The notes under the pieces were generated by a model that saw only the letters and a list, made by a program, of their open reading frames with translations, searched no databases and was not told where the DNA came from. Below are positions 19,901 to 51,437 of a stretch of DNA of 64,000 nt, piece by piece. Numbering within the stretch: the first letter of the stretch is position 1; each line of letters starts with the position of its first letter. Made by a program: the position numbers and the translations under genes. Source of the DNA: an uncultured Bacteroidia bacterium (GTDB taxonomy: Bacteria; Bacteroidota; Bacteroidia; Bacteroidales; UBA932); assembly GCA_902785785.1 (NCBI GenBank), contig CADAAA010000001.1, positions 248,001-312,000 of the forward strand, read 5' to 3'.

Positions 19901-19988
19901 CGTTTCTGAACAAAACCGCGGTTTTTGTTCAGAATTGCCCTTATTTCAGCCGTTTCTGCACGAAATCAGCGTTTTTGTTCAGAATTGC
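19901..19988. repeat. Two 27-bp imperfect palindromes at 50-bp period
   Basis: Unit 1 is 19906-19932, with arms CTGAACAAAA and TTTTGTTCAG around a 7-nt centre. Unit 2 is 19956-19982, with arms CTGCACGAAA and TTTTGTTCAG. The shared block is longer: both units are preceded by CCGTTT and followed by AATTGC, so 38-bp copies start exactly 50 bp apart (19901, 19951). The left arm of unit 2 has two changes that break pairing. The repeats lie between the thiL start and its likely -7 box (20010-20003), probably in the thiL 5' leader. No family name is known to me. Confidence 0.85.
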
Positions 19989-20002
19989 GGGCGGGGTGTA
20001 GA

Positions 20003-20038
20003 CAAATGTAAGAATAATCGGCGGAATTGCTATCTTTG
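20003..20038. promoter_or_regulatory. Divergent -7 boxes for thiL and the 183-residue gene
   Basis: TACATTTG on the minus strand (20010-20003) and TATCTTTG on the plus strand (20031-20038) both match TAnnTTTG and point away from each other. The plus box lies 24 nt before the ATG at 20063. Good -33 elements are not evident for either. Confidence 0.55.
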
Positions 20039-20062
20039 CAGCCAGCAATTTCAAGGTAAGCA

Positions 20063-20614
20063 ATGGACGACAGCAGGATAGCGACATACGACAGGTTCGA
20101 GGCCAGCCTGAGGAGGGAACTCATAAAACTCTGTACTGAATACGAGATGATGAACGGGCAGCTGCTTCACTCGGACGATATCGATGCCAAGTGGGACGAA
20201 TTCGCCCGCGACTACATGATCGATGCTGTCCATGAGTTCAATGCATATCCCGAAGCATCGCTTGCCTGGGCTGCTTTCCTCGGCATGGGCGTCGCACGTC
20301 ATTGGGACGAGGACTGGCGCAGGCATTCTTCCGACAAATACGTTTCCTATTACGGCAGCAGGGGATATGATGACATGGACGAGCATGTTCTGAGAGATGT
20401 CCTGGGCTACGCACTTGATTCCGATAAGGCCAAGGCCATCATTTCGATGCTCAGCCGTTGCGCCGCACTGGTCCTGACGCTCATCCGTCGTGAGGGCTTC
20501 GAATCACAGAGCGTCGAGGCCTATTATGTCCTTATCCGCAGCGTCAAGGTCATGTACCAGATCGGCGCTTCCATCGAGTTGTTCCGCCTCGGGTATTCCT
20601 TCCGTCCGCTCTGA
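20063..20614 (+). CDS. conserved hypothetical protein, helical, 183 residues
   Basis: I do not recognise a named family. The protein is acidic, without signal peptide or membrane segment, and appears mostly alpha-helical. Aromatic residues alternate with charges in YMIDAVHEFNAYPEASLAWA and GMGVARHWDEDWRRH. The middle contains a tyrosine-rich turn (YVSYYGSRGYDD), and the C-terminal half is a set of amphipathic helices (AIISMLSRCAALVLTLIRRE). It has its own -7 box and stands alone between thiL (divergent) and a lipoprotein gene with its own promoter, so the context gives no function. Confidence 0.75.
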   Translation: MDDSRIATYDRFEASLRRELIKLCTEYEMMNGQLLHSDDIDAKWDEFARDYMIDAVHEFNAYPEASLAWAAFLGMGVARHWDEDWRRHSSDKYVSYYGSRGYDDMDEHVLRDVLGYALDSDKAKAIISMLSRCAALVLTLIRREGFESQSVEAYYVLIRSVKVMYQIGASIELFRLGYSFRPL

Positions 20615-20625
20615 TGCCTTGAAGG

Positions 20626-20656
20626 CTTGCCGGTTCGGGACTTTTTCATATCTTTG
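20626..20656 (+). promoter_or_regulatory. Full Bacteroidetes-type promoter for the DUF2271 gene
   Basis: CTTG (20626-20629) lies 19 nt before TATCTTTG (20649-20656), matching the -33/-7 arrangement. The ATG follows 21 nt after the -7 box. Confidence 0.7.
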
Positions 20657-20677
20657 TAGAAATCAAAGGTTTTCACT

Positions 20678-21253
20678 ATGAAAAAGATCATTTCCCTCTT
20701 GTTTGTCTGCACCGTTTCCACGCTGCTCGCATCCTGCGCTTCCAAGCCCGGAACGGTCGAACTGTCCTTCAACTATACCAAGCAGGCCGGTCCCGGCTCC
20801 AATCAGTACGCCGTCTGGATCGAGGATGCCGCTGGAAAGGTAGTCAAAACACTCTTCGTTACCGAGTTCACCTCCAAGGGACGCAGCCGCGACGGCTCAA
20901 AGCCTGCGCGCGGCTACACATACCGCACTTCGTGCATGCCTACCTGGGTGAAACACGTTGGAGCCGAGAGCCTTACGGACGAGCAGATGGACGCCTTCAC
21001 CGGCGCAACGCCTGCCCAGAGCGGCGTTCAAACATTCACCTGGGATTTCACCGACCAGGCCGGGAAGCCGGTTGCCAAGGGTACCTACCGCGTCTATCTA
21101 GAGGCTACCTATAACGGAAACAGCGTAGTTACGTACACCGGTACCGTCACGTCGGGCCAGAAGCCCGGTGAACTCAAACTGGACAAATCATACATGGAGG
21201 AGTCGGAGGACCGCAAGGACATGATCTCCGACGTTACTGCGAAGGTCTTTTAG
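20678..21253 (+). CDS. DUF2271 lipoprotein
   Basis: This is a lipoprotein of 191 residues with the signal MKKIISLLFVCTVSTLLASC and a lipid-modifiable Cys at 20. The mature part is a beta-sandwich of the DUF2271 type: VELSFNYTKQAGPGSNQYAV, WIEDAAGKVVKTLFV, and later TFTWDFTDQAGKPVAKGTYR and VYLEAT. DUF2271 proteins are often found near flavinylated or PepSY proteins in membrane electron transfer, but no such partner is seen here. It is a single gene with its own promoter, convergent with the YkvA gene (4-nt gap). Confidence 0.8.
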   Translation: MKKIISLLFVCTVSTLLASCASKPGTVELSFNYTKQAGPGSNQYAVWIEDAAGKVVKTLFVTEFTSKGRSRDGSKPARGYTYRTSCMPTWVKHVGAESLTDEQMDAFTGATPAQSGVQTFTWDFTDQAGKPVAKGTYRVYLEATYNGNSVVTYTGTVTSGQKPGELKLDKSYMEESEDRKDMISDVTAKVF

Positions 21254-21256
21254 GCA

Positions 21257-21709
21257 TCAGCCCTGGACGTCGACATCGCCGCCATCCTTAGGATTCTTTT
21301 CAATGGTGATCTCCGCTTCGTCGTAGTCGCCGAACCAGTCATGCAGCTTCTGCTTGGCCTGGGCTTCTATCTCCGGAGTGACGTTCTTGGCCACCGCGTA
21401 GAATGCCCAGAGCAGGGCGGCCAGGTCGTCGGTATATCCTGCTACAGGGATGAAGTCGGGGATGATGTCTATCGGCAGGATGAAATATCCCAGCGCGCCC
21501 CAGATCTTGCCCTTGTCGGCAGTCTTGACCTTGGGACTTTTCAGGACATAATACAATATAAGGGCTAGATATACGACTTTGATGCCGGCCTTCCTGGCGG
21601 CTCTGGTGACTTTCTTGAGGAAGTCCTGTTCGTTGTACCGGTTCTGGTATTTCTCGATATCCTTGGGTGTCATCTTGTCAGTCTGGATGGTCCGGGCATG
21701 GAACTGCAT
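21257..21709 (-). CDS. YkvA family protein (DUF1232)
   Basis: From the ATG at 21709 the protein has 150 residues. A longer frame to 21907 would run through the promoter and the start of the divergent gene. The DUF1232 core is clear: VVYLALILYYVLKSPKV, then GKIWGALGYFILPIDIIPDFIPVAGYTDDLAALLWAF. This hairpin-like membrane segment with the LPIDIIPD motif defines the family. The molecular role is not established. The acidic C-terminus (DYDEAEITIEKNPKDGG) is probably cytoplasmic. An internal ATG at about 21673 is an alternative start. Confidence 0.82.
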   Translation of the reverse strand: MQFHARTIQTDKMTPKDIEKYQNRYNEQDFLKKVTRAARKAGIKVVYLALILYYVLKSPKVKTADKGKIWGALGYFILPIDIIPDFIPVAGYTDDLAALLWAFYAVAKNVTPEIEAQAKQKLHDWFGDYDEAEITIEKNPKDGGDVDVQG

Positions 21710-21738
21710 AAATTGTTCCAGCTTTCTCCTAAAAACAG

Positions 21739-21746
21739 TATCTTTG
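21739..21746 (+). promoter_or_regulatory. -7 box of the YgjP-type gene
   Basis: TATCTTTG matches TAnnTTTG exactly and lies 18 nt before the ATG at 21765. A TTG at 21713-21715 is 23 nt upstream, slightly too far for an ideal -33. Confidence 0.55.
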
Positions 21747-21764
21747 CCCAGGAACTCCGACACT

Positions 21765-22151
21765 ATGTTTTTCTTTATCCGCAGACGCAGGCGCAAAAGA
21801 AAACCCCTGACGGCCGAACAGGCCGCAGAGGTGGAGCGGCTGCGCATCCAGGCCAAGGTGGCCCTGCCGCCCCGCCTGGCCGAGCTCGCCGCCCGCCATG
21901 GCTTCACCTACAACCAGGTACGCATCAAGCACAATGTCTCCAACTGGGGCAGTTGCTCTGAGCTCGGCAACATCAATCTCAATCTCAACATAATGCGCCT
22001 TCCTGAGCACTTGCAGGACTATATCATGCTGCACGAGCTCTGCCACCTGTGCTATCTCAACCACGGTCCGGAGTTCCATGCCCTGCTGGAGAGCATCTGC
22101 CCCGGCCACCGTGCCCTCGCCCGTGAGTTGAAGGGATACAGACTTATTTAA
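21765..22151 (+). CDS. YgjP-like zinc metallopeptidase domain protein (DUF45)
   Basis: The protein has 128 residues from the ATG at 21765, which follows a good -7 box; an earlier in-frame start at 21579 lies antisense inside the YkvA gene. The N-terminus is very basic (FFFIRRRRRKRK). The gluzincin-like core reads RIKHNVSNWGSCSELGNINL, the zinc motif HELCHL and the further ligand region NHGPEFHALL. This matches the YgjP/WLM superfamily of small zinc peptidases. It is shorter than E. coli YgjP and keeps only the catalytic half. Its stop overlaps that of the convergent lipoprotein gene. Confidence 0.85.
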   Translation: MFFFIRRRRRKRKPLTAEQAAEVERLRIQAKVALPPRLAELAARHGFTYNQVRIKHNVSNWGSCSELGNINLNLNIMRLPEHLQDYIMLHELCHLCYLNHGPEFHALLESICPGHRALARELKGYRLI

Positions 22152-22549
22152 AAGGCCAGCTGCACTCCCGAACAGATAGGGGTCCAGTCGCCCCACCAGT
22201 CTTCGTCGTACATTCTGACATGCGTGCTCGCTTCTACAAGCACCGACTTGGGATATGCGCTCCTGTTCGGGGCGATGGTGACGGGGAAGGTGTTGCCCTT
22301 GGAACCGGCAACATCGGCGACGGACGCTATCTGTCCGTCGATGATGATGCGGTACTGCCAGTCGAAATACTTGACATCCGCCTTTGTATCATAGTAGGCG
22401 TAGTCGTAGCGGATCATGTATGTCCCGCCTTCTGCGGGAATCACGGTCGGAAGATTGTCATATCCGAAGACCGGCTCGTAATAGTCTGTACTACAGGAGC
22501 TGAAGCCGATTGCGGCCAGCGCAAGGAGGAGTATGCTTATCTTTTTCAT
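22148..22549 (-). CDS. small lipoprotein, unknown function
   Basis: This lipoprotein has 133 residues, signal MKKISILLLALAAIGFSSC and a lipid-modifiable Cys at 19. The mature part looks like one all-beta Ig-like domain: PTVIPAEGGTYMIRYDYAYY, then WQYRIIIDGQIAS, then FPVTIAPNRSAYPKSVLVEA. The phrase IPAEGGTY recalls the opening of BACON/Ig-like domains of Bacteroidetes surface proteins, though only loosely. It stands alone, with a short AT-rich leader (22550-22599) between it and the tricorn gene on the same strand. I assign no function. Confidence 0.7.
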   Translation of the reverse strand: MKKISILLLALAAIGFSSCSTDYYEPVFGYDNLPTVIPAEGGTYMIRYDYAYYDTKADVKYFDWQYRIIIDGQIASVADVAGSKGNTFPVTIAPNRSAYPKSVLVEASTHVRMYDEDWWGDWTPICSGVQLAF

Positions 22550-22599
22550 ATGCGAAATCTTTATTATAAGACGGTCCAGGGCCGTTTTTGTTAAAGATA

Positions 22600-25500
22600 C
22601 TATCGCATTTCCCTGATAACTTCGGCTATGGCGGCGTCAAGCTGGGGATCCTTGCCCTCGAGCCTGTCCTTGAAGGTGTTCTTGACGTAGATGTCCGGCT
22701 TGACGCCTGTATTCTCGAGGTCGGAGCCGTCGATGACGCTGTAGCAGCCCCAGGCGGGCATACGGCAAGTGGAGCCGTCCAGCAGGCGGACGGAGGAGGT
22801 GAAGATGATCCAGCGGTAGGTCTCAGTACCTACGAGTTTGGCGATGCCAAGGGTCTTGATGCCGTTGGAAGTCACTTCGGCGTCGGAGAGGCTGTGCTCG
22901 TTGACAAGCACGACTATGGGCTTTCCTGCGGGAGCCACGTTCGGGTGCGAAGCCTTCGGGAAGTCCCTGTACGCCCATTCGAAATGGGCCTGCCCCCGCA
23001 GGAAATCAATCACTTCCTTGTGGACGTTGCCTCCGTTGTTGTAACGCAGGTCGAGGATCAGGGCGTCCTTGTCATATACTTCCGTGTGCATTTTCAGGAG
23101 GAACGAATCGAGGTCCTCCGCTCCCATGGCGCGCATATGGATGTATCCGACCCGGCCTCCGGTCCTGTCGGATACGATCTCCGCGCGCTGCTCCTCCCAT
23201 TCCTTGTAGGCCAGCGTCTTGATGCTCGAGAAGGTGGTGGTGTGCACCTTGACATCGAATTCCTTGCCGCCGCGGCTGAACCGCAGCTTGAGCTCGTCCG
23301 CCGGCACGGCGCCCGAGAAATACTTCTCGCGGTTCTGCGCCTTGTCCACCCGCACTCCGTTCACGGCGATGAGCTCGTCACCCTTGCGGACGTCGATCCC
23401 GTGCCTGTCGGCAGGGGAGTCCGCAAGGATCCCGGCGACCTTGTACGGGGATGCGTTGTCGAACACGATACCGGTTCCGTATGTACGGATCCTGGTCTCG
23501 TTCTTCTCCTCGGAACCGGTGGACGTGAATCCCAGGTGCGAGGAGTTGAGCTCGCCCAGAAGGTCCGCAAGGAGGGTCCTGAGGTTCGCACGCGTCCTGA
23601 CGTAAGGAAGGAGCGAAGCGTAATAATCCCTCACTGCGGGCCAGTCCGCCCCGTGGAAATTGACATCATAGTAATTCTGCTCGAGCACTGCCCAGGTCTC
23701 GTAGAACATCTGCCTGAATTCATCGTCCAGCACTGCCTCTACATCCTTCTTGACTTCGGTCTTTGTCGCTGTCGCGGCAGCCGGGTCCACCTTGTAGATG
23801 GCGCCGGAAGCCAGGCAGTACAGCGCATCCTTGCAGCTGAAGAATGTACCTCCGTTCAGGTCCTTGACCTGCTTCGGCTTGGCGTCCGGGTCGGAGATTT
23901 CCAGGGAGAATACTCCCGGAGTTCCCGATCCCATGGAACGGTACAGTAGGTAGTCCTTGCCTTTTGAAGTATAGATATAAGGGCTGCCCTGGCTCCCTTC
24001 CCGCTCGACGCGGGTCATCCTCTCATGGATGTCCTTGAAGTCGATCACGACGACGGAGTCTTTCTTCGGCTCGTCCTTCTTGTCCCGGAACAGCTCATCG
24101 ACCTTCTCCGACTTGAAGGGGGTATCGTATTTCTGCAGGGGCAGCTTGTACAGCGCAGACCTCGCACCGCGCGGATAGGAGGTTGCCGTCGGATTGGCCA
24201 GCAGATACATGTATTTCCCGTCAGGGGTGAACACGGCGCTTTCCTCCACTGACGCGGAGTTCGTGAAATTCCTGAGGCTTCCGTCCTTGAGGTTGTAGAG
24301 GAAGATATCAGGCTCAAACATGTGCATCGCATCGAACGCCAGCCAGTTGCCGTCATACGAGAATGCGAGGTCATAATTCTGGAATGACCAGAACTCTGCT
24401 TCGGCTGCCTTGACGGTGGTTCCGGCCTTCATGTCGTGGAGCATCACTGCACGGCTGCCGTCGATGAAGGCGAGTTTCTCGCGCTTCTTGTCGACGGCCA
24501 GGCTCTTGGTGTTGTTCTGTGACAGGAATACCGGCGTCTCGCCTGAGCTGCCGTCGGCCGATATCTTGTAGAGGTTGGTCCACCCCTTGTCGGTCCTGGT
24601 GTAATAGACGGTCTTGCTGTCATTGCCCCAGACGACCTGGTCCACCCGCTCATCGGAAGGGGTGTCAAGCATTTGCAGATACTTGCATTTGGTGTCGGAG
24701 ATGTACAGCCTGCCGCGGATGACCAGGGCGAACTTCTTCCCGTCGGGAGACACATCCGCGGCGGTGGGCGTCTGCCCTTCGAACGACCTGCGGACCTCGA
24801 CGCTTCCTGATGCTATATTGATCTGAGGGACAGATACTTTACCCGTAGATGGCTCCAGGACATGGATCTCGTAGTCCTTGAGGAAAACGATGGCCGAACC
24901 GTTATGTGCGATGGAAGGATACTGGACAGACTTGTCGAAACTCGTCAACTGCTGGGGCTTTCCACCCTTGACATACTTGACGATATTGGATTCCTTGTTG
25001 AGCTCATCGCTGACATAGTAGATGTTGCCGTCCTTGTCCGCCATAGGCCATTGGTCCTTGCCTATATAGTCGGTAAGCTCGGTATATGCCTTGCTCTTCG
25101 GATTCCACAATTTGATGTTGGGATTGTGGTCTCCGACATAGCGTTTCCTGGTCGGGAAGCTGATGCTTTCCATCGACTCGTTGAAGAGGAACTCTCCTGT
25201 CTTGGGATTCTCGGCGAGGTTGACTATGGTGTTGAAGTATCCGTCGAACATCAGCTGCGGCGTGCCGCCCGCTACGGCCACCTTGAAGGTGGTCTTGCGG
25301 GCGCTGGCACGCGTGGACTCGAAATAGACGAAATCCGACTTGGCAGACCAGTTCACCGGGACGTCCGGCGCTTCGTGGAAGGTCAGCTGGACGGCCTGGC
25401 CGCCATTGACTGGCACGACGTAAACATCGTTGTTGCCCTGGATGTCGGAGCTGAAGGCCAGCCACTTACCGTCGGGGGAGACGAGGGGCGAGTCCTGCAC

Positions 25501-25695
25501 GCCCGGCATCGTGATGACGGCCGTCGCCTGCCCGCCCCCGACGGGAACGGTATAGATATCCCCGTCATAACTGAAGTATATCTGCTTCCCGTCCGGGGAA
25601 AGCGACGGATGCGACGCGAAGCGGATGTTCTCCGCAACTGCGGCAGTGGTAGCGACCATCATCACAATGGCCGTGAGGATAAATCTTTTATTCAT
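22600..25695 (-). CDS. tricorn-type S41 family protease
   Basis: This is a periplasmic protein of 1031 residues with a cleaved signal (VMMVATTAAVAEN). The first half carries WD40/PD40-like beta-propeller repeats with SPDGKQIYFS, SPDGKWLAFSS, SPDGKKFALV, YDGNWLAFDA and TPDGKYMYLL, as in the tricorn core. From about residue 660 follow the C1 helical domain, a PDZ domain (GILADSPADRHGIDVRKGDELIAVNGV, about 770-800) and the S41 catalytic domain. ALILDLRYNNGG and NEHSLSDAE place the serine nucleophile near residue 925. Such proteins trim peptides from larger proteases. It has its own promoter with a palindrome array just upstream. Confidence 0.92.
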   Translation of the reverse strand: MNKRFILTAIVMMVATTAAVAENIRFASHPSLSPDGKQIYFSYDGDIYTVPVGGGQATAVITMPGVQDSPLVSPDGKWLAFSSDIQGNNDVYVVPVNGGQAVQLTFHEAPDVPVNWSAKSDFVYFESTRASARKTTFKVAVAGGTPQLMFDGYFNTIVNLAENPKTGEFLFNESMESISFPTRKRYVGDHNPNIKLWNPKSKAYTELTDYIGKDQWPMADKDGNIYYVSDELNKESNIVKYVKGGKPQQLTSFDKSVQYPSIAHNGSAIVFLKDYEIHVLEPSTGKVSVPQINIASGSVEVRRSFEGQTPTAADVSPDGKKFALVIRGRLYISDTKCKYLQMLDTPSDERVDQVVWGNDSKTVYYTRTDKGWTNLYKISADGSSGETPVFLSQNNTKSLAVDKKREKLAFIDGSRAVMLHDMKAGTTVKAAEAEFWSFQNYDLAFSYDGNWLAFDAMHMFEPDIFLYNLKDGSLRNFTNSASVEESAVFTPDGKYMYLLANPTATSYPRGARSALYKLPLQKYDTPFKSEKVDELFRDKKDEPKKDSVVVIDFKDIHERMTRVEREGSQGSPYIYTSKGKDYLLYRSMGSGTPGVFSLEISDPDAKPKQVKDLNGGTFFSCKDALYCLASGAIYKVDPAAATATKTEVKKDVEAVLDDEFRQMFYETWAVLEQNYYDVNFHGADWPAVRDYYASLLPYVRTRANLRTLLADLLGELNSSHLGFTSTGSEEKNETRIRTYGTGIVFDNASPYKVAGILADSPADRHGIDVRKGDELIAVNGVRVDKAQNREKYFSGAVPADELKLRFSRGGKEFDVKVHTTTFSSIKTLAYKEWEEQRAEIVSDRTGGRVGYIHMRAMGAEDLDSFLLKMHTEVYDKDALILDLRYNNGGNVHKEVIDFLRGQAHFEWAYRDFPKASHPNVAPAGKPIVVLVNEHSLSDAEVTSNGIKTLGIAKLVGTETYRWIIFTSSVRLLDGSTCRMPAWGCYSVIDGSDLENTGVKPDIYVKNTFKDRLEGKDPQLDAAIAEVIREMR

Positions 25696-25775
25696 ATGTC
25701 AATATATAATTTCTCTGTTCAAACTTCGGCAGAATGCTCCCCCCTCATTCCCTTACTAACTTCCACCCCTTTCTC

Positions 25776-25807
25776 CAAATATAGTCCTTCTTCCCGACAA
25801 TCCCAAA
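25776..25807 (-). promoter_or_regulatory. Full Bacteroidetes-type promoter of the tricorn gene
   Basis: On the minus strand TTTG (25807-25804), a 20-nt spacer and TATATTTG (25783-25776) match the -33/-7 consensus very well. The leader is about 70-75 nt. The nearest palindrome of the 25832-25960 array lies 25 bp upstream of the -33 element, a natural place for an operator. Confidence 0.75.
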
Positions 25808-25831
25808 CTTCCCTCCTCCCGGCTATATGAC

Positions 25832-25960
25832 AAGCACAAAAGGGAGCATTTTGTGCTTAAAATGGAGAAGTGGGAGCAAATAAAGCACAAATGCTGGAGT
25901 TTTGTGCTTAAAATGAAGGTGTTAGTGTGAAATAAGCACAAAACAACTGTATTTGTGCTT
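25832..25960. repeat. Three 27-bp palindromes at exact 51-bp period
   Basis: Units are 25832-25858, 25883-25909 and 25934-25960. Each has a left arm AAGCACAAA(A) and a right arm (T)TTTGTGCTT around a 7-9 nt centre that differs in each unit (GGGAGCA, TGCTGGAG, CAACTGTA). The 24 nt between units are mostly different, though the first two are followed by AAAATG. Start-to-start distance is 51 bp twice. The array sits between truB (upstream on the minus strand) and the tricorn promoter. The surrounding 320-bp gap holds no gene. There are no cas genes and the unit centres vary, so it is not CRISPR. Confidence 0.9.
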
Positions 25961-26015
25961 ATTTGAAGGCGAGGTAACAGGGGCGATGAGGAAGGAGGCA
26001 ATAGGGAGGCTGAGG

Positions 26016-27029
26016 TTATTGAAGGATGGCGAGGGCGTCCGGGAGGGAGAGGGCGTCCTCGACGGGGATGCCGCCGTTACGGGTGCGGCGGAGGCTGCTG
26101 AGGAAGGCGCCGCTGCCCAGGGCTTCGCCCAGGTCGCGCGCCAGGGCACGTATGTACGTGCCTTTCGAGCAGTCCACCCGCACCATCGCCGTCGGCAGGT
26201 TATAAGCCGAGATGTCCGCCACATGGATCCTGTTATTCCTGCCGTTTCCATCTCCAGCCGAGGGTATGGGTCCTGAAAATGCCTCACTTCGTTCGGCCCC
26301 TCCCATCGCAGGCGATGGGCCCCTCCCTCTTATGTTGCCGAGGGTGGCACAATTTTCGGGACCCATACCCTCGGCTTTGGGAACAAAGTCATCGTGAGGA
26401 GTCAAACTGTTCGGAGGTGGCTGGCAGATAGAAGAAGAGGCTGGAATGAATCTCTCAAGTTCAAGTGAGTAGATGTTGATCCTTTGCCGGGAGAGGAGGT
26501 CGGTGGCGGCATGGTCGAAGGCCGTGCCGGTGCGCTGCGCCTCGCGGTAGGCCCTGCGGGCCATCTCGTAGGCGCGGATGCCGTCGACGGACTTCGCCGA
26601 GAAGAGCGGCGCGACCTGGTCCTGCTCCCCGACGAAGTCGGGCAGCACGGACTGCAGCGCCGCCTCCGACACCCCGTCCAACGGGAACAGACTGTCTATC
26701 TCTTTCTCCAGGTCGTATGACGGGGTAGTCGCCCCGAAGGTGACTCCGGCCAGATACTGCTTGGGCGACGCTTGAAGTTCCTCGGCCAGTTTCGTAGCCT
26801 TGCCGATGCACACGAGCAACACCCCGGTAGCGAGGGGGTCCAGCGTACCGGCATGTCCTACTTTTAGGTTCTTCTTGTGGAAATGCTTGATGGCCTGGTA
26901 CTTGACCTTGCGGATGACATCCGCGGAGGTCCATCTGTATGGCTTGTCCACCGGGAGGATTATCCCTTCCGGATAGTCGTCGATGTTGTCCGTCAGGGTC
27001 ATTCCCCGGCGTGCCACAAGTGCTGCCAT
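26016..27029 (-). CDS. truB: tRNA pseudouridine(55) synthase with a ~75-residue insert
   Basis: TruB makes pseudouridine 55 in the T-loop of tRNAs. The core is intact: LPVDKPYRWTSADVIRKVKY, the catalytic GTLDPLATGVL (Asp64), QYLAGVTFGATTPSYD, PLFSAKSVDGIRAYEMAR, INIYSLELERF and then VDCSKGTYIRALARDLGEAL. The length of 337 residues exceeds the usual Bacteroidetes size, because about 75 residues separate INIYSLELERF (184-194) from SAYNLPTAMVRVDC (about 274-287), which normally follow almost directly. Residues about 218-258 of the insert are encoded by a palindromic DNA element (26256-26376). The frame stays open. It is the last gene of the dcw-rpiB run; an internal ATG at 27002 may be the true start. 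Confidence 0.9.
   Translation of the reverse strand: MAALVARRGMTLTDNIDDYPEGIILPVDKPYRWTSADVIRKVKYQAIKHFHKKNLKVGHAGTLDPLATGVLLVCIGKATKLAEELQASPKQYLAGVTFGATTPSYDLEKEIDSLFPLDGVSEAALQSVLPDFVGEQDQVAPLFSAKSVDGIRAYEMARRAYREAQRTGTAFDHAATDLLSRQRINIYSLELERFIPASSSICQPPPNSLTPHDDFVPKAEGMGPENCATLGNIRGRGPSPAMGGAERSEAFSGPIPSAGDGNGRNNRIHVADISAYNLPTAMVRVDCSKGTYIRALARDLGEALGSGAFLSSLRRTRNGGIPVEDALSLPDALAILQ
26256..26376. mobile_element. 121-bp palindromic element in frame inside truB
   Basis: Terminal inverted repeats 26256-26280 and 26352-26376 match at 24 of 25 positions (outer part AGCCGAGGGTATGGGTCC). Inside lies a second perfect palindrome, CCCATCGC-AG-GCGATGGG (26306-26323). Read in the truB frame the element gives KAEGMGPEN... 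through GPSPAMGGAERSEA to FSGPIPSAG. Because of the symmetry, the opposite strand also encodes AEGMGPEN and FSGPIPSA. There is no transposase, so it is non-autonomous, like MITE/REP or Rickettsia-style palindromic elements inserted into genes. No target duplication is obvious. I did not find a second copy in the window. Confidence 0.85.
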
Positions 27030-27066
27030 AGTCAGATTGTCAGGGCCTTAAGCCAAAGCGGCGCAG

Positions 27067-27495: not shown

Positions 27496-27508
27496 AGCCA
27501 AATGCGTT

Positions 27509-44022: not shown

Positions 44023-44034
44023 AGCCTCAGCCTC

Positions 44035-44487: not shown

Positions 44488-44518
44488 GGTTTCTGTAACT
44501 TGTTTCACGCGATTGCCA

Positions 44519-44571
44519 CAAAGGTAAGAAAAAGTTTTCCATTTTGTTCCACCGCTTTCCAAATTTTTCCA
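44519..44571 (-). promoter_or_regulatory. dcw promoter with four MraZ-box-like repeats
   Basis: On the minus strand TGGAA occurs four times at exactly 10-bp steps (44571-44567, 44561-44557, 44551-44547, 44541-44537). These are followed by the -7 box TACCTTTG (44526-44519), 32 nt before the mraZ ATG. In E. coli MraZ binds TGGGN repeats spaced by 5 nt, which also gives a 10-bp period. The repeats cover the -33 region, where no TTTG is found. Confidence 0.75.
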
Positions 44572-44675
44572 CAATATTATGTTGAAAACATACCTGCCCA
44601 TATCAATTCATATCCTACCCCTCAGATAAGTATCTTTTTGAATGCCTTCCATTGCGTTTTTTCGTTTCTTGCGGC

Positions 44676-45362
44676 ATGAAAATAAAGGAACTGACAGAAG
44701 GGGAGAGACCCAGGGAAAGGATGATGGAGTACGGGGCGGAAAGTCTCGGGACGGGAGAGTTGCTGGCGATCCTGCTGCGCAGCGGCACCCGCGGCGAGAG
44801 CGCCGTGGACCTGGCCCAGCGCATGCTGGCCCTGGCCGGAGGCTCGCTCATGCAGCTCTCGCGAATACCTGTGGACAGGCTGCGCGCCCAGCGCGGCCTC
44901 GGCGGCACCAAGGTGCTGCCGGTCATTGCCGCGCTGGAGCTCGGCCGTCGCTTCATGGCGGAGGAATCCAGGCTGGAGAAGATACCTGTCATCGCTCCGG
45001 CGCAGGTCTACATCATGATGAAGCCGGAGTTGAAAGGATTGGAGACTGAGGAGTGCTGGGTGATATATCTCAATGCCGCCAAGTACGTCATCTCGAAGGA
45101 GTGTGTGAGTTCCGGCGGACTAAATGCTACAATCATGGACTGCAAGAGGATCGTGGCTTCAGCCCTTGACCGTAAGGCCCAGGCGCTGGTCCTGGTCCAC
45201 AACCACCCTTCCGGCAATCCCAGGCCTGGGTCGGAAGACATACGGCAGACTGCGGCGCTACGGGCCGCACTCAAGCCTTTCTCCATAGAACTGGTCGACC
45301 ATGTCGTCTTTGCTGACGACAGCTACTACAGTTTTGCGGATGAAACGGTGTATAGAGGCTGA
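44676..45362 (+). CDS. radC: RadC family JAB-domain protein
   Basis: The protein has 228 residues from the ATG at 44676 (MKIKELTEGERPRERMMEYG); an ATG at 44652 would add eight residues unlike the family. The N-terminal helix-hairpin-helix part shows LGTGELLAILLRSGT and LRAQRGLGGTKVLPVIA. The C-terminal MPN+/JAB domain carries the zinc motif LVLVHNHPSGNPRPGSED. The metal site is complete, but a biochemical role for RadC is not settled; the old link to recombination repair was withdrawn. It is divergent from mraZ and convergent with rpoN. Confidence 0.92.
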   Translation: MKIKELTEGERPRERMMEYGAESLGTGELLAILLRSGTRGESAVDLAQRMLALAGGSLMQLSRIPVDRLRAQRGLGGTKVLPVIAALELGRRFMAEESRLEKIPVIAPAQVYIMMKPELKGLETEECWVIYLNAAKYVISKECVSSGGLNATIMDCKRIVASALDRKAQALVLVHNHPSGNPRPGSEDIRQTAALRAALKPFSIELVDHVVFADDSYYSFADETVYRG

Positions 45363-45367
45363 GAGGA

Positions 45368-46780
45368 CTATAGCTCCTTGCGGAGACGGGCCTTGGGTAT
45401 GCCGAGCTGGTCGCGGTACTTGGCGATGGTGCGGCGCGCCACCTTGTACCCTTTTCGGTTCATCTCGTCCACCAGCTGGTCGTCCGTGAGAGGCTTGCGC
45501 TTGTTCTCCCCGTCCACGCACTCCTGAAGGGCCTTCTTCAGCTCGCGTGTAGAGACCTCCTCGCCAGCCTGGTTCTCGAGACCCTCGGAGAAGAAATACT
45601 TGAGCGGATAGATGCCGAAATGCGTCTCGATGTACTTGCTGTTCACGACGCGCGAAATGGTGGAGATGTCGAAGCCGGTGACTTCGGCTATGTCCTTGAG
45701 CACCATGGGCTTGAGATGTGACTCATCACCGTCCATGAAGTAGTCGTGCTGGTAGTCGATGATGGCCCGCATGGTGCTCTCGAGGGTATTGTGGCGCTGC
45801 TTGAGAGCCTCGACGAACCACTTGGCCGAGTCGATCTTTTGCTTGACGAAAGTCGCGGCTTCCTTCTGCTTCTTGTCAGTCGATCCCTTGGCTTCGACAA
45901 GCATGTCCGCGTACTTCTTGTTCACCCTGATCTCCGGGATTGAGAAACGCGGCATAGTAAGGTGAAGCTCGCCGTCAACTATGTCCAGCATGAAGTCCGG
46001 GACGACCTGCTGGGCCTGCTCGGTATACGAGTCGTCGACCTGCCCGCCAGGTGTGGGATTGAGCTTCACGATACGGTTTATGGCGGCCTTGAGCTGCTCC
46101 TCGGATATGCCCATACGGGACATGATCTTCTGGAAATGCTTGTTGGTGAACTCCTGGAAATGGTCGTTGAGTATGCACAGGGCGTTGGTCACGTCCTCTG
46201 TCTGCTTCATCTTGCGGAGCTGGATGGTGAGGCATTCGCGAAGGTCGCGGGCGCCTACCCCCGGCGGATCGAACTGCTGGATGATGCCCAGCAGCTCGGA
46301 CACCTCTTCGTAAGAGGTCTCGATGTTCTCCCGGAAGGCTATGTCGTCCACGATGCTGTCGAGGTCGCGGCGGAGATAGCCGTCCTCGTCGATGCTGCAT
46401 ACCAGATAGCGTCCCACGGCCATCTGATGCTCGTTCAGGTTGCGGAAACCGAGCTGGGTCAGGAGGCTCTGGGTGAAACTCTCCTTGACGGAGAAGGTGT
46501 TGTATTCGGGACGTTCGTCCTTGCCGTAGTTGTTGACTCGCAGGCGGTAGGAAGGGATGGGGTCGTCTGCGTCCAGCTCGTCGATGGATATGTCCTTGGG
46601 CTGGTCGTCATCGTCATCGCGTCCCTCGACAGGACCGTCGTCCAGCACAGGATTGTCCTCAAACTCACTTTTCACGCGCTGTTCCAGTTCCTGGATGGGG
46701 AGTTCGATGAGCTTGATGGTCTGGATCTGAAGCGGTGAAAGCTTCTGAACCTGTTTCTGTTCTAGTCCTTGCTTGATCAT
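45368..46780 (-). CDS. rpoN: RNA polymerase sigma-54 factor
   Basis: RpoN directs transcription from -24/-12 promoters and needs enhancer-binding proteins. The protein has 470 residues. Region I is glutamine-rich (QGLEQKQVQKLSPLQIQTIK). An acidic region II follows (EGRDDDDDQPKDISIDELDADD). The core-binding domain has FDPPGVGARDLRECLTIQL, the HTH region has MVLKDIAEVTGFDISTISRVV, and the C-terminal RpoN box reads ARRTIAKYRDQLGIPKARL. It is the last gene after the SPOR protein (10 nt gap). Confidence 0.95.
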   Translation of the reverse strand: MIKQGLEQKQVQKLSPLQIQTIKLIELPIQELEQRVKSEFEDNPVLDDGPVEGRDDDDDQPKDISIDELDADDPIPSYRLRVNNYGKDERPEYNTFSVKESFTQSLLTQLGFRNLNEHQMAVGRYLVCSIDEDGYLRRDLDSIVDDIAFRENIETSYEEVSELLGIIQQFDPPGVGARDLRECLTIQLRKMKQTEDVTNALCILNDHFQEFTNKHFQKIMSRMGISEEQLKAAINRIVKLNPTPGGQVDDSYTEQAQQVVPDFMLDIVDGELHLTMPRFSIPEIRVNKKYADMLVEAKGSTDKKQKEAATFVKQKIDSAKWFVEALKQRHNTLESTMRAIIDYQHDYFMDGDESHLKPMVLKDIAEVTGFDISTISRVVNSKYIETHFGIYPLKYFFSEGLENQAGEEVSTRELKKALQECVDGENKRKPLTDDQLVDEMNRKGYKVARRTIAKYRDQLGIPKARLRKEL

Positions 46781-46790
46781 GAGGGGGTTC

Positions 46791-47324
46791 CTACGGTCTT
46801 GCGACGGCTATGGTGTCCACGACATAGGCGTGGTTCCTGTCAACGATGGGATAGTTGATATTCTCCTTGACAACGAACGCGGAAGGGAAGTCCGCCTTCA
46901 GGCGGCGCATCATCTGCATGGCCTCGGACTTGGTCCGGAAGTCTCCGACAGTCACCTTGAAATAAGGGCTGGCGAAGGAACGGTAAGCCCCGTGTCCGGG
47001 ATACGCGGCCTTGAAGCGGCCCATGGCCGCCTCGGAGGCGCTCCTGGCGTTCTGCTTGTTGTCGAAGAATATCCTCACCCGGTATCCGGCGATCTTCCTG
47101 CTCTTGTTGCGCTCTATCTTAGCGCTCATCGCGTTGGCTATGGACTGGGACTGGTGGACAGTGACGGAATTGAACACGTTCGTGCCCACAAGGCTCTCGT
47201 CAAGGCTGGCCGCGGGTACGTAGACGAGGGAGTCGGCCGATGCCGTCTCCTCGACATTCTGCGCATGCAGTGGAGCCGCGGCAAATGCCGCGAGGAAGAT
47301 CATATAAAGTAAAAGTCTTTTCAT
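46791..47324 (-). CDS. SPOR-domain periplasmic protein
   Basis: The protein has 177 residues from the ATG at 47324. MKRLLLYMIFLAAFAAAPLHAQ is a cleavable signal peptide. A linker is followed by a C-terminal SPOR-like domain with RKIAGYRVRIFFDNKQNARS, then FKAAYPGHGAYRSFASPYFK and VTVGDFRTKSEAMQMMRRLK. SPOR domains bind denuded glycan strands at the septum. Its ATG overlaps the stop of the upstream lipoprotein gene (ATGA at 47324-47321), and it lies 10 nt before rpoN. Confidence 0.82.
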   Translation of the reverse strand: MKRLLLYMIFLAAFAAAPLHAQNVEETASADSLVYVPAASLDESLVGTNVFNSVTVHQSQSIANAMSAKIERNKSRKIAGYRVRIFFDNKQNARSASEAAMGRFKAAYPGHGAYRSFASPYFKVTVGDFRTKSEAMQMMRRLKADFPSAFVVKENINYPIVDRNHAYVVDTIAVARP

Positions 47325-47830
47325 ATCATGGTCTCTTGGACAATGAGGTCGAGATAGGCGGCGGCCACACTCGGCTCCATCAGGTCGGTAATTCTCAAAT
47401 CTTTGAATCTGAATGTCTTGCATATTCCGAGCATGAAGCGGACCTTGACGTTGAGATCCACTGTCATCCCGCTGAAATCCCGGGTGGAGGCATACTTGAG
47501 CAAGTCCGTCAGGCCGACATCCTTGGCGATGGCTCCCTCGCAGGTGAGGGGATAGACTTTGTTGCTCTTCCTGGCCACCCTGATCTTCCCGGTGGTGAAA
47601 TTGGCGATTTCGCGGCCCGAGTCGTTGATGACACCGTCAATGCGGGAGATGGTAAGGTTGGACATGGGATTGACTATGCCGACCTTGAGGACGGCCTTCA
47701 GGGCCCGGAGGCCGTTGGGCGTAACTGACGCCACGGAGCAGGACGTTACGTTCAAGCCCTTCTCCGTGGAGCATCCGGCCGCCAGGAACAGGACCAGCGC
47801 GGCCGTGACGAGGAGGAACAGTCGTTTCAT
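47321..47830 (-). CDS. lipoprotein with LEA-like beta domain
   Basis: This is a lipoprotein of 169 residues from the ATG at 47830 (MKRLFLLVTAALVLFLAAGC; Cys at 20). A longer frame to 47893 would cover its promoter. The mature part has the spacing of a late-embryogenesis-abundant type 2 (WHy) beta sandwich: LRALKAVLKVGIVNPMSNLT, then ISRIDGVINDSGREIANFT, then FSGMTVDLNVKVRFMLG. The match is by eye and moderate. It heads a three-gene operon with the SPOR protein and rpoN, and is divergent from miaB. Confidence 0.72.
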   Translation of the reverse strand: MKRLFLLVTAALVLFLAAGCSTEKGLNVTSCSVASVTPNGLRALKAVLKVGIVNPMSNLTISRIDGVINDSGREIANFTTGKIRVARKSNKVYPLTCEGAIAKDVGLTDLLKYASTRDFSGMTVDLNVKVRFMLGICKTFRFKDLRITDLMEPSVAAAYLDLIVQETMI

Positions 47831-47850
47831 GCCGGAATGTGCTTTCTTCG

Positions 47851-47877
47851 CAAAGATACAAAAAAATCCTATCTTTG
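47851..47877. promoter_or_regulatory. Mirror-image divergent promoters
   Basis: CAAAGATA (47851-47858, a TATCTTTG box on the minus strand) and TATCTTTG (47870-47877, plus strand) form a perfect inverted repeat with 11 bp between. The minus box serves the lipoprotein-SPOR-rpoN operon (ATG 47830), the plus box miaB (ATG 47915). They are so close that the two polymerases probably exclude each other. Confidence 0.7.
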
Positions 47878-47914
47878 CCTTGCATTTCCTCAAGGGTCAT
47901 GCCAAAAGGGTCTT

Positions 47915-49228
47915 ATGAAGAAAGTTTACATCGAAACATATGGCTGCCAGATGAATGTCAATGACACCGAGGTCGTGTTCTCCATCCTTGCAAAGGAAGG
48001 GTATGAAAGGACCACGGAGATCGGCGAGGCCGACGTCATCATGGCCAACACCTGTTCTGTCAGGGACAATGCCGAACAGCGTATTTGGGGCCGTATCGAG
48101 CAGTTCAACCTCCAGCGCAGGGACCGTCCCGTGGTCATCGGCATCCTCGGATGCATGGCCGAACGCCTGAAGGACAAGCTCCTGGACACCCGCAAGGTAG
48201 ACATCGTGGCCGGCCCGGACGCCTACCGCAGCCTTCCAAGGCTGCTGGAGGCAGTGTCCGACGGACACCCCCAGATCGACGTCATGCTTTCCCGTGAGGA
48301 GACCTATGCCGACATCAATCCCGTCAGGATCGACTCCAACGGCGTATCCGCCTTCATCTCGATCATGCGCGGCTGCAACAATGTCTGTTCCTATTGCGTG
48401 GTGCCGTATACCCGCGGCGCGGAGCGCAGCCGCGACCCCCGCACGATCGTGCGGGAGGCCTGCGACTGCTTCAGCCGCGGGTATAGAGAAGTCACCCTGC
48501 TCGGCCAGAACGTCGATTCGTACCACTGGACAGGCGAAGACGGAGAGGTTACCTTCGCGCAACTCCTCGAGAAGGTAGCCCTTGTCAGCCCCGAACTCCG
48601 CGTGCGTTTCTCCACATCCAATCCACAGGATTTCTCCGATGAGGTCATCTATACGATGGCTGCATACGACAACATCTGCAAGCACATCCATTTCCCCGTA
48701 CAGTCCGGTTCCAACCGCATGCTGGAGAAGATGCGCCGCCGCTATACCCGCGAGTGGTACCTTTCAAGGGTGAAGAAGATCCGCAATGTCATCCCCGACT
48801 GCGGCATTACGACCGACGTCATCGCCGGTTTCTGCACGGAGACCGAAGAGGACCACAAGCAGACGCTGAGCCTGTTTGAGGAGGTCGGCTATGACACAGC
48901 TTTCATGTTCTATTATTCGGAGCGTCCGGGCACTTTCGCCGCCAGGCACTGGCCGGACGACGTGGACATCGAGACCAAGACCCGCCGCCTGAACGAGATC
49001 ATCACCCTGCAGAACCGCAAGAGCCTTGAGAGTTACCGCCGCGACATTGGGAAGCGTTTCAAGGTCCTCGTCGAGGGACCTTCAAAGAAAAACCCTTCCG
49101 AACTGTGCGGAAGGGCTTCCAATAACAAAATGTGCGTCTGGCCTGACACGGCCCACAAAGCCGGTGACTACGTGGAGGTCGAGGTTCTCGACTGTACTTC
49201 CGCCACGCTTCTCTGCAGGCTGGCCTAG
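47915..49228 (+). CDS. miaB: tRNA-2-methylthio-N6-dimethylallyladenosine synthase
   Basis: MiaB adds a methylthio group to i6A37 of tRNAs by radical SAM chemistry. From the ATG at 47915 the protein has 437 residues. The N-terminal MTTase domain has YIETYGCQMNVNDTEVV, MANTCSVRDNAE and IGILGCMAERL with three Fe-S cysteines. The radical SAM motif CNNVCSYC lies at about 148-155, followed by VVPYTRGAERSRDP. A TRAM domain ends the protein (GKRFKVLVEGPSKKNPSE). It ends 2 nt before the stop of the convergent carboxyltransferase gene. Confidence 0.95.
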   Translation: MKKVYIETYGCQMNVNDTEVVFSILAKEGYERTTEIGEADVIMANTCSVRDNAEQRIWGRIEQFNLQRRDRPVVIGILGCMAERLKDKLLDTRKVDIVAGPDAYRSLPRLLEAVSDGHPQIDVMLSREETYADINPVRIDSNGVSAFISIMRGCNNVCSYCVVPYTRGAERSRDPRTIVREACDCFSRGYREVTLLGQNVDSYHWTGEDGEVTFAQLLEKVALVSPELRVRFSTSNPQDFSDEVIYTMAAYDNICKHIHFPVQSGSNRMLEKMRRRYTREWYLSRVKKIRNVIPDCGITTDVIAGFCTETEEDHKQTLSLFEEVGYDTAFMFYYSERPGTFAARHWPDDVDIETKTRRLNEIITLQNRKSLESYRRDIGKRFKVLVEGPSKKNPSELCGRASNNKMCVWPDTAHKAGDYVEVEVLDCTSATLLCRLA

Positions 49229-49230
49229 CT

Positions 49231-51015
49231 TTATTCCTGGACGAAGGCGATCACTTCGCCCTTCGCCACGTCTTTTCCCTGCTTGGCGGTGACCGCAACG
49301 ACGCGTCCGCTCACAGCGGGGACGATCTCCTCCAATCCGTACCAGGTCTGGACATAGCCCATGGGCTTTCCGGACTTGACGGCGGTGCCGGCCACTGGCG
49401 CCTTGGAGTCGTCCTGGACATCCACCTCCCACAGCATCTTGCCCTTGGCAGGAGCCTGGACGGGAGTGGCCTTGGGATATTTTGCCACATAGGAGTCGAT
49501 GTCGAACTCGGGCATCTCCACGACGGGACGGGTGACGACCTTCGGTGCGCCGGCCTTTTCCTTAAGGGCCTCGAGGTCCTTAAGGAAACGCTCCTTGGCG
49601 ACACCGGAGCGGTAGTCGAGGTACTGGCGCTCATGCATGGCAAGCTCGAAGAGCTCCTCATCGTCCTCGCCGTAGTCCCAGCCCTTCTCATCCATCATCT
49701 TGCGGTACTTGGGCAGCTCGTCGGGATAGTTGTCCTGAGGATTGCCGGTCTGGAACTCCATTCCCTTCTCCTTGGCGAGATCGATGATCTCAGGCGCGAG
49801 GGGACCGGGGAGGTTGCCCATCTTGCCCAGGATCATTCCCCAGGTGTCCTTGTCGATGGTGGAGAAGCGAGGCTTGCCGCTGGCAAGGTTGAAGAGATTC
49901 ATCAGCGCGGTATTCTTGACATACTGGCTGAACGGGGTCACGAGCGGCGGGTAGCCGAGCTTGGGCCATACGTACTCGACCTCGCTGAAGAGTTTGACCA
50001 TCAGGGTGTCGAGGCTGCTGACGGGCTCTCCGTGGGAGCGCTCTGCAGCATTGATGGCATCCTTGAAGCCGATGAGGTCCGCCATCATCGAACCCATCAT
50101 ACCTCCGGGGAGTCCGCAGCCGACGAGCAGGGAAGTCATCTGGGAGTTGGTGGGGTTGATCCAATAGCCGAGGAAGTCGTCGATGAACGACTGGGTCAGG
50201 CGGCGCACCTCCATATATGCGTCCATATTGATGTCCTTGACGAGGAATCCGTCGGCCTTCATCATCTCGCGGATGGTGATGACGTCGGGATGGACCTTGC
50301 CCCAGGAGAGGGGCTCGACGGCCACGTCGAGGTAGTCGGCGCCGGCGCGGGCGACCTCGAGCATAGAGGCGGGCGAGAAACCGGGGCCGGTATGGCCGTG
50401 GTACTGGACCTTGATGTGGGGATACTTCTTCTTGATCTCGCGGACGATCTCGGCGAGGGCGGTAGGACGTCCGATGCCTGCCATATCCTTGAGGCAGATC
50501 TCGTCGGCGCCGTATTCCACCAGCTTGTCCACGACACCCATATAATAGTCCACGGTGTGGACGGGGGAGTGGGTGATGGAAAGGGCGGCCTGCGAGATCA
50601 TGCCGGCTTTCTTGGCGTACTCGACCGAGAGCTTGAGGTTGCGGTGGTCGTTCAGGCCGCAGAATGAGCGGGCGATGTCGGTGCCCTGTTTTTTCTTGAC
50701 CTTGAACATGAGTTCACGGACGTCTGCCGGGACGGGATACATGCGGAGGGCGTTGAGACCGCGCTCCAGCATGTGGGTCTCGATGCCCACCTTGTGGAAA
50801 GGAGCGGTCCACTCGCGTACGGAGCGGTTGGGGTTCTCGCCGTAGAGCAGGTTAACCTGCTCGAAGGCTCCGCCATTGGTCTCCACGCGGTCGAAGCAGC
50901 CCATGTCGATGATGGCCGGAGCCACCTTGACGAGCTGGTCCACTCTGGGCTGGTACCTTCCGGAGGATTGCCACATATCCCTGTATACGAGGGAGAATTT
51001 TATTTCACGTGCCAT
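49231..51015 (-). CDS. carboxyltransferase (OadA/PycB-like) with degenerate biotinyl domain
   Basis: The protein has 594 residues from the ATG at 51015 and resembles pyruvate carboxylase subunit B / oxaloacetate decarboxylase alpha. The TIM-barrel domain starts REIKFSLVYRDMWQSSGRYQ. ICLKDMAGIGRPTALA holds the carbamylated-type Lys, and YHGHTGPGFSPASMLEVARAGADYLD the metal histidines. The PYC_OADA domain follows to about 480. The C-terminal lipoyl-like domain (KAPVAGTAVKSGKPMGYV, then SGRVVAVTAKQGKDVAKG) has QTWYGLEEI where AMKM normally stands, so the biotin-accepting Lys is replaced by Tyr at about 559. It may work with a separate carrier, or the domain may be structural. No partner subunit is adjacent. 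Confidence 0.85.
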   Translation of the reverse strand: MAREIKFSLVYRDMWQSSGRYQPRVDQLVKVAPAIIDMGCFDRVETNGGAFEQVNLLYGENPNRSVREWTAPFHKVGIETHMLERGLNALRMYPVPADVRELMFKVKKKQGTDIARSFCGLNDHRNLKLSVEYAKKAGMISQAALSITHSPVHTVDYYMGVVDKLVEYGADEICLKDMAGIGRPTALAEIVREIKKKYPHIKVQYHGHTGPGFSPASMLEVARAGADYLDVAVEPLSWGKVHPDVITIREMMKADGFLVKDINMDAYMEVRRLTQSFIDDFLGYWINPTNSQMTSLLVGCGLPGGMMGSMMADLIGFKDAINAAERSHGEPVSSLDTLMVKLFSEVEYVWPKLGYPPLVTPFSQYVKNTALMNLFNLASGKPRFSTIDKDTWGMILGKMGNLPGPLAPEIIDLAKEKGMEFQTGNPQDNYPDELPKYRKMMDEKGWDYGEDDEELFELAMHERQYLDYRSGVAKERFLKDLEALKEKAGAPKVVTRPVVEMPEFDIDSYVAKYPKATPVQAPAKGKMLWEVDVQDDSKAPVAGTAVKSGKPMGYVQTWYGLEEIVPAVSGRVVAVTAKQGKDVAKGEVIAFVQE

Positions 51016-51054
51016 ATCAGTTTTATTAAAGATTCTTATTGAGCCGTAATCATA

Positions 51055-51062
51055 CAAATATA
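51055..51062 (-). promoter_or_regulatory. -7 box of the carboxyltransferase gene
   Basis: TATATTTG on the minus strand matches TAnnTTTG and lies 39 nt before the ATG at 51015. No good -33 TTTG is seen at the expected distance. Confidence 0.5.
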
Positions 51063-51134
51063 GCAAAAAATCTCACCATATCCGACGCCAGGGTGGACTT
51101 TGTTCAGTTTTTTTATGCAGCCCCAACAAAATAT

Positions 51135-51164
51135 TTTGTCAATCGATTTTTTTCACTACCTTTG
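51135..51164 (+). promoter_or_regulatory. Promoter of tRNA-His
   Basis: TTTG (51135-51138), an 18-nt spacer and TACCTTTG (51157-51164) match the Bacteroidetes consensus and lie 12 nt before the tRNA, the spacing expected for a stable RNA with a very short 5' leader. Confidence 0.7.
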
Positions 51165-51177
51165 CAGTCCTAACACG

Positions 51178-51253
51178 GTGCGATTAGTTCAGTTGGTAGA
51201 GCACCAGATTGTGGTTCTGGGTGTCGTGGGTTCGAGCCCCACATCGCACCCCA
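51178..51253 (+). tRNA. tRNA-His (GTG)
   Basis: A complete cloverleaf can be drawn. The acceptor GTGCGAT pairs with ATCGCAC, the D arm contains AGTTCAGTTGGTAGAGC, the anticodon stem CCAGA/TCTGG encloses the loop TTGTGGT with anticodon GTG, and the T arm reads GTGGGTTCGAGCCCCAC. The discriminator is C, and CCA is encoded (51251-51253). A G at 51177 supplies the extra G-1 that is special to tRNA-His. It has its own promoter and terminator. Confidence 0.97.
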
Positions 51254-51258
51254 ACTGT

Positions 51259-51292
51259 AAAAGGGACGACTCATGCGGGTCGTCCCCTTTTT
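51259..51292 (+). terminator. Terminator of tRNA-His
   Basis: GGGACGAC (51263-51270) pairs with GTCGTCCC (51279-51286) around TCATGCGG. The stem is flanked by AAAA on the left and CTTTTT on the right, giving a standard intrinsic terminator a few bases after the CCA end. Confidence 0.88.
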
Positions 51293-51328
51293 ATAAGTTG
51301 TAGTGCGTCGCGCCCTTCCATTCCCTAT

Positions 51329-51437
51329 CCGTGCGAGTTTTCGCCCTAAATCCGCACCGATTCTCCTGATTGGCCGCATCCGTGCGGAAAAACGCCTGAA
51401 ATCCGCACGGCTTTCCCTCTCCCTTAAATCCGTTTGG
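51329..51437. repeat. 31-bp GC-rich palindromes at 51-bp period (two units plus a remnant)
   Basis: Unit 1 (51329-51359) runs from CCGTGCGA to CCGCACCG. Unit 2 (51380-51410) runs from CCGTGCGGA to TCCGCACGG with perfect 9-bp arms. Starts are 51 bp apart. A half-unit TCCGTTTGG begins at 51429-51430, one further period on, without a pairing arm. Centres share CGCC-T-AAAT. The array lies in the non-coding stretch 51293-51638 between the tRNA-His terminator and the outer-membrane barrel gene. This stretch holds no gene, only this array and the next one. Confidence 0.85.

Follow-up and report, generated by a model that had tools for sequence, protein, structure and literature searches.

Arrays of short palindromes lie between the genes of a 64,000-nt window (positions 248,001–312,000 of contig CADAAA010000001.1, assembly GCA_902785785.1) from an uncultured Bacteroidia bacterium of the UBA932 lineage, whose genus we take to be Cryptobacteroides. 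These arrays, of which the window contains three that we designate sites 1–3 as well as a fourth one (Table 1), are very probably repeats akin to REP (repetitive extragenic palindromic) sequences, and each family of arms would be acted on by a separate member of a clade of HUH/Y1 single-strand nucleases that resemble RAYT proteins (REP-associated tyrosine transposases) and have radiated. The HUH genes lie in other parts of the genome, with copies of their own palindromes on either side. Arms and genes are linked in sequence, a spacing of ca. 51 bp recurs independently of the arms, the arrays are dispersed among intergenic regions, and they differ between related species; from these patterns we infer that the arrays are mobilized by the HUH relatives.

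The link between genes and arms resides in the gene flanks. Within the array cluster at L042:8058-9669 there is a frame on the minus strand that carries an N-H-L-H motif, and frames similar to it sit between arrays in two other species. A profile built from the first four proteins (A1) retrieved nine members from the genome that carries the window, and a wider profile (A3) retrieved 12. The palindromes in the flanks of these genes are CTGAACAAA for L162, CCGTGCTC for L163, GCGCACG for L164, AAGCACAAA for L165, CCGTGCGG for L166, TAGACGGTCCA for L168 and GCGGCAGATGCG for L169, while L170 is accompanied by TGTACA-type repeats; within site 3, positions 51377-51394 are identical (18/18 bases) to both flanks of L166. 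Close inspection of 12 loci revealed that each gene sits between copies of its array. In six of them these copies span 82-99 bases, that is, doublets, and in the others they are longer; those of L166 are identical over 82 bases. A frame found between two arrays in L040 was discarded, as it is not a member of the HUH family.

We evaluated this association in 42 loci from the genus, picked by highest score rather than at random, after three duplicate loci had been taken out. For every gene, the left flank was compared with the right flank of the same gene and with those of the other loci. A palindrome was common to both own flanks in 24/42 loci, versus 20/1722 mismatched pairs. Four of the loci (L157, L159, L160, and L162) were seeds found through their arrays; without them, the palindrome was shared in 20/38 loci versus 9/1406 mismatched pairs.

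The same set of 42 loci showed a dominant flank period of 51 in 25 cases, of 50 in two, and of 52, 75, and 90 in one each, and no period was found in shuffled flanks. Leaving out the seeds, the period was 51 in 23/38 loci and 50, 75, or 90 in one each, with none in 12, although three of the 51s and the single 90 each rest on one match. A nearly fixed spacing was also apparent among the arm families of the genome that carries the window, which comprise TGAACAAAA (site 1, family A), AAGCACAAA (site 2, family B), CCGTGCGG (site 3), GCGCAC (family C), TAGACGGTCCA (family D), CGTGCTCA, GCAGATGC, CCTTCGG, and AGGAGGA. Neighboring palindromes were 50 bp (six gaps) or 51 bp (two gaps) apart in family A, and 51 bp apart in all the gaps of families B (8/8), C (11/11), and D (3/3); the gap was 73 in 5/5 cases for AGGAGGA, and GCAGATGC palindromes occur singly. 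The arm sequences are widely different among loci, with a common core in the GAACAAA/GCACAAA group; palindromes at the gene loci span from 25 to 48 bases, as picked automatically.

An earlier note on this window, made from the sequence alone, had postulated selection on arm pairing and proposed to look for covariation, and both found support. Among all 46 GAACAAA-like palindromes, outer positions 1 and 2 were paired in 37 and 30 (shuffled means of 18.6 and 15.0; 0/2000 shuffles as high), position 3 was weakly paired (21; 26/2000 shuffles as high), and positions 4 and 5 were not paired above chance. This count replaces a previous figure of 96.3%, which was upward-biased because it derived from 27 hand-picked palindromes of the 46. 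Likewise, covariation in all 10 palindromes of the TAGACGGTCCA family was 0.163, versus 0.070 in shuffles (0/500 as high). Symmetric covariation is expected from a hairpin and from a homodimer site alike, and taken alone it favors neither.

We also followed the suggestion in that note of a genome scan against shuffled DNA, searching for any 8-base self-pairing arm recurring, paired, 25-120 bp away. The first scan of the genome that carries the window yielded 36 matches in 870,390 bases versus 0 in one dinucleotide shuffle, a count in which one array appears twice (L012 and L013 overlap); without L013, there were 35 arrays in 844,000 bases versus 1 in three shuffles, far above chance, and the period was 49-52 in 26/35. 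Of these arrays, 34/35 are outside called genes, such that the cognate palindromes are dispersed between host genes; a candidate inside a coding region (L038:6714-6849, period 105) was rejected as an array of the type described here. Genome-wide, exact GAACAAAA-N-TTTTGTTC palindromes numbered 20, versus 0 for the reversed control pattern. Applied to other members of the genus, the scan produced 55 arrays in 1,429,216 bases, 44 of them with a period of 49-52 and 33 of exactly 51, in a set without a shuffle control that takes in loci picked for HUH genes or GAACAAAA palindromes; stretches from relatives not picked for arrays (e.g., L055, L070, L122, L138) also hold arrays, with other arms and a similar period. 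The pattern ACAAAA/TTTTGT was found 24 times in the genome that carries the window, versus 0 for the reversed control. This pattern was discarded as a marker across the phylum: 63/395 genomes had matches, but outside of this genome there were only 0 to 3 per strand, about as many as in their controls.

The open frames of the HUH genes in the genome that carries the window encode 290-340 aa. Residues H72, H74, and Y130 are invariant in 14 divergent sequences and in 35 clade sequences, as expected for an HUH enzyme with one tyrosine, and Y130 is the putative catalytic one; the consensus tyrosine motif of the 35 members is Y-x-N-R-N-G. An hhalign comparison of the clade with two PF01797-positive proteins gave a probability of 93.9 and an E-value of 1.6e-7, the probability being 40 when only four sequences were used. 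Individually, 16/35 members reached PF01797 at E<=1 (best 1.5e-5) and 9/35 reached NF047646 REP_Tyr_transpos (best 1.7e-6). Searches of PDB were only suggestive: profile A1 had no relevant match, named transposases came on top with profile A3 (best E 0.09), and the six sequences listed with profile A5, at non-significant E-values of 0.045-1.2, were all named transposase or TnpArep. Nothing useful was found in PHROGs for two of the first four proteins. The members from this genome that were compared with L162, which do not amount to all pairs, were 16-50% identical to it.

Wide-profile matches were present in 88/101 sampled genomes of the genus, with up to 19 in one of them. With a narrower profile, 7/247 genomes sampled from the order had matches, strong in the genome that carries the window and in one congener and weak in the other five (best 4.4e-5), so that the HUH clade looks genus-centered.

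The twelfth homologue (L217:1348-2268) has an HUH motif that reads N-H-T-H, its middle residue being T instead of the hydrophobic one seen as a rule, and a hairpin on one side only; it was discarded as the gene for the CCTTCGG or AGGAGGA families since it carries another hairpin. L021 is a PF01797-positive RAYT-like gene located between 106-bp imperfect direct repeats (1235-1340, 2341-2446) that hold a CTCCCTTG hairpin, and together with these repeats it looks like a small IS-type (insertion sequence) unit. L021 and L022, which is also PF01797-positive, were rejected as genes cognate to the arrays because their own hairpins differ from the array arms.

Comparison of arms and period with related species, many of them known from metagenome-assembled genomes, had a mixed outcome, arrays being variously kept, shorter by one period, replaced or absent. 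For site 1, the same doublet is present in G169, whereas G130 contains one palindrome and is shorter by exactly one local period (50 bp); the corresponding place in G190 and L050 has no array, though the neighbor genes are present. The identity of the neighbor protein is 96% in G130 and 84% in G190 and L050. For site 2, the AAGCACAAA palindrome occurs four times at the corresponding place in L050; in G130 and G169 that place is taken by a palindrome of the GCGGCAGATGC type (the family of L169), and in G190 neither of the two is present. The absence of an array in a relative can mean either later gain or loss. The earlier idea of spreading elements that amplify by one period thus agrees with the observed presence/absence and with the exact one-period difference at site 1, patterns from which the spreading itself is deduced.

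We propose that the HUH protein would bind the hairpin formed by its palindrome in single-stranded DNA and would cut and rejoin next to it, which could spread, expand and trim units of two palindromes ca. 51 nt apart. Two hairpins on the same strand may then act as the ends of a miniature element similar to IS200/IS605, and the constant spacing might be imposed by the geometry of the enzyme or its dimer, leaving the arms free to diverge while each protein changes its specificity. More tentatively, and with a somewhat less than even prospect of being correct, a single genus could harbor single-strand DNA transposition systems that have radiated, are mutually orthogonal and use a 51-nt ruler between same-strand hairpins; as many as a dozen or so enzyme-hairpin pairs, without cross-reaction, would then coexist in a 2.4-Mb genome and continually rewrite its intergenic regions.

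The system is reminiscent of the RAYT/TnpAREP proteins and their REP, BIME and REPIN sequences. RAYT genes are flanked by private REP families in inverted orientation (PMC2817692), and REPIN doublets have a family-specific spacing, of 71 or 110 bp in SBW25, and form tandem clusters (PMC3116915). The similarities include a protein with an HUH motif plus tyrosine, cognate palindromes on both sides of the gene, an intergenic palindrome family private to each gene, fixed-spacing doublets and tandem arrays (PMC2817692, PMC3116915). Conversely, the GT[AG]G carried by canonical REPs (PMC6006769) is lacking at the foot of our palindromes, the flanks are mostly direct instead of inverted, the proteins are of ca. 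300 aa with a long C-terminal part, and ca. 51 bp is common to different arms. Likewise, there are up to 19 wide-profile matches per genome here, and the mean for the published REP-associated subclasses is between one and two genes per genome, in most cases with GTAG as the guide (PMC6006769). Because the working appears RAYT/REP-like, but foot and inverted flanks are lacking and length, tyrosine motif and common spacing are different, we would call these arrays a variant of the RAYT/REP system and not canonical REPs.

Another close system, described in the same survey, is TnpAY1 subclass 2.6 (Bertels group 5), from Bacteroidetes, with a median of 179 aa, the tyrosine motif YIH[QN]NP, a mean of 1.8 copies per genome, and atypical secondary structures that occur next to the gene as well as in other parts of the genome (PMC6006769). 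Our proteins share with it the Bacteroidetes host, the NH[LIV]H-type motif and the atypical secondary structures without GTAG, but they differ in their length (ca. 300-315 aa) and in their Y-x-N-R-N motif; the survey took PF01797 matches at E<0.01 as its starting set (PMC6006769). As in IS200/IS605 elements, there would be a Y1 HUH enzyme and same-strand hairpins at both ends, given the direct flanks, although the IS200/IS605 transposase has a median of 152 aa (PMC6006769); the members compared with L162, at 16-50% identity, were not near-identical to it. In the literature searched, mostly outside subscription journals, we found no description of such arrays in this bacterial group.

Several results weigh against our interpretation. 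The first four proteins had no useful sequence match in Pfam, NCBIfam or PDB. In the two-sided flank comparison, 18/42 loci, including L022, L167, and L170 from the genome that carries the window, had no common palindrome, and 12/42 had flanks in which no period was found. For the CCTTCGG family, with gaps of 42 (one), 43 (three), and 52 (two), and for AGGAGGA, no genes were found among the 12 homologues of this genome. Protein identity and arm similarity were only weakly related (Spearman 0.13; 219/5000 permutations as high), in a test where the automatic choice of arms was wrong at some loci, such as L159 and L162. Additionally, GT[AG]G occurred in 2/116 feet from six families versus a background of 5.1%, and the flank copies, which were direct in 19/24 loci, inverted in three and undecided in two, are unlike those of published RAYTs; this direct orientation would nevertheless fit the need of a same-strand excision like that of IS200/IS605.

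The conservation of the arms alongside variable spacers and centers, and the constant spacing across different arms, could also be accounted for if the HUH relatives were domesticated, DNA-binding or chromosome-organizing proteins and the arrays were phased double-stranded sites, 51 bp being about five helical turns, that are kept by selection and do not spread; a homodimer site would likewise have symmetric arms. We consider this rather unlikely, since the arrays found at a given place vary among related species, with replacements and absences, other families hold 43, 73, or 83 bp, orientation relative to the genes shows no clear preference (on rough gene calls), and the gene sits between copies of its array in the 12 loci inspected. 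Passive multiplication of the palindromes by slippage and recombination, with the genes merely sitting within them, is in our opinion very unlikely: it would suit the exact one-period difference at site 1 and the exact or near-exact tandem copies in L024:9178-9359, but slippage leaves unexplained the 51 bp common to different arms, the pairing and covariation of the arms, and the matching palindromes across a gene.

We give the least credence of all, as a highly improbable reading, to the arrays being operators, transcription terminators or structured RNAs of the neighbor genes, even if their intergenic location would be in agreement with it. Of the 34 intergenic arrays, 16 are between tandem, nine between convergent and five between divergent genes, with four undetermined, which is roughly proportional to the shares of intergenic base pairs (54% tandem, 26% convergent, 20% divergent); these classes are rough because our home-made gene caller overlooked atypical HUH genes. 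On these statistics we rejected the terminator or operator reading. Rfam retrieved a tRNA as the sole match in the window, and none at the palindrome arrays, the same arms occur at many loci, and the neighbor genes of site 1 occur without an array in G190 and L050. The pure operator or structured-RNA readings of the earlier note consequently found no support, and from its proposal of operators read by paralogous regulators we retain the paralogous proteins with cognate palindromes, although these proteins are relatives of HUH transposases and not demonstrated regulators.

The preferred reading, of REP-like arrays each served by its own HUH nuclease, places in a single genus a large set of related enzymes, with palindromes that diverged and one spacing that stayed almost the same. 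This separates the sequence that is read from the distance that must be kept, and the natural enzyme-substrate pairs allow direct tests of the recognition code, of the size of the mobilized unit and of how intergenic turnover originates. Many such genes may escape routine annotation, as 19/35 members of the clade fail to match PF01797 even at E<=1.

Table 1. Palindrome arrays in the window and HUH genes with matching flanks (array coordinates refer to the window).
Feature	Coordinates	Strand	Period or spacing (bp)	Relationship
Site 1, CTGAACAAAA..TTTTGTTCAG palindrome doublet	19904-19934 + 19954-19984 (19904..19984)	.	50	Arms cognate to HUH gene L162
Site 2, AAGCACAAA..TTTGTGCTT palindrome triplet	25832-25858, 25883-25909, 25934-25960 (25832..25960)	.	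51	Arms cognate to HUH gene L165
Site 3, CCGTGCGG..CCGCACGG palindrome doublet	51329-51359 + 51380-51410 (51329..51410)	.	51	Arms cognate to HUH gene L166
Fourth array, ATACAGCTTGTACAA repeats, direct and inverted	51453-51590	.	83	Adjoins site 3; matches left flank of L170
HUH gene L162	G000:C5:148486-149412			Flanks match site 1
HUH gene L165	G000:C6:68650-69558			Flanks match site 2
HUH gene L166	G000:C4:219642-220550			Flanks match site 3
HUH gene L170	G000:C6:157651-158262			Left flank matches fourth array

Direct reading of the window and measurement of the repeats corroborated the three arrays listed in the earlier note, with their periods, as well as the A-tract and T-tract that it described for two of them, which are present in sites 1 and 2 around a variable center of ca. 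7-9 bases. The fourth array was absent from that list. The arms had been thought to be specific for each site, which turned out to be incorrect, as those of the window arrays recur at many loci of the genome.

Other arrays show variations in arms and arrangement. Arrays of the orphan families CCTTCGG and AGGAGGA are located at L025:11940-12096, L012:13938-14008, L038:18878-19131, and L019:287-394, in a genome that is 96% complete. A mixed-arm palindrome in L024:9175-9258 (at 9226-9258, AAGCACAAAA in the left arm and TTTTTGTTCTT in the right one) lies beside GAACAAAA-type palindromes, and is possibly an intermediate between the AAGCACAAA and GAACAAAA families. Species G021 contains arrays in which AAAAGAACAAAA palindromes are paired with AAAAGCACAAAA ones (L159:10693-13122 and L161:13453-13543), with a period of 52 and a center that often contains GGGG. 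Finally, in L163:1050-1386 and 2499-2835 the palindrome subtypes CCGTGCTC and CGGTGCTC alternate, resulting in a higher period of 102, that is, in arrays of doublets.

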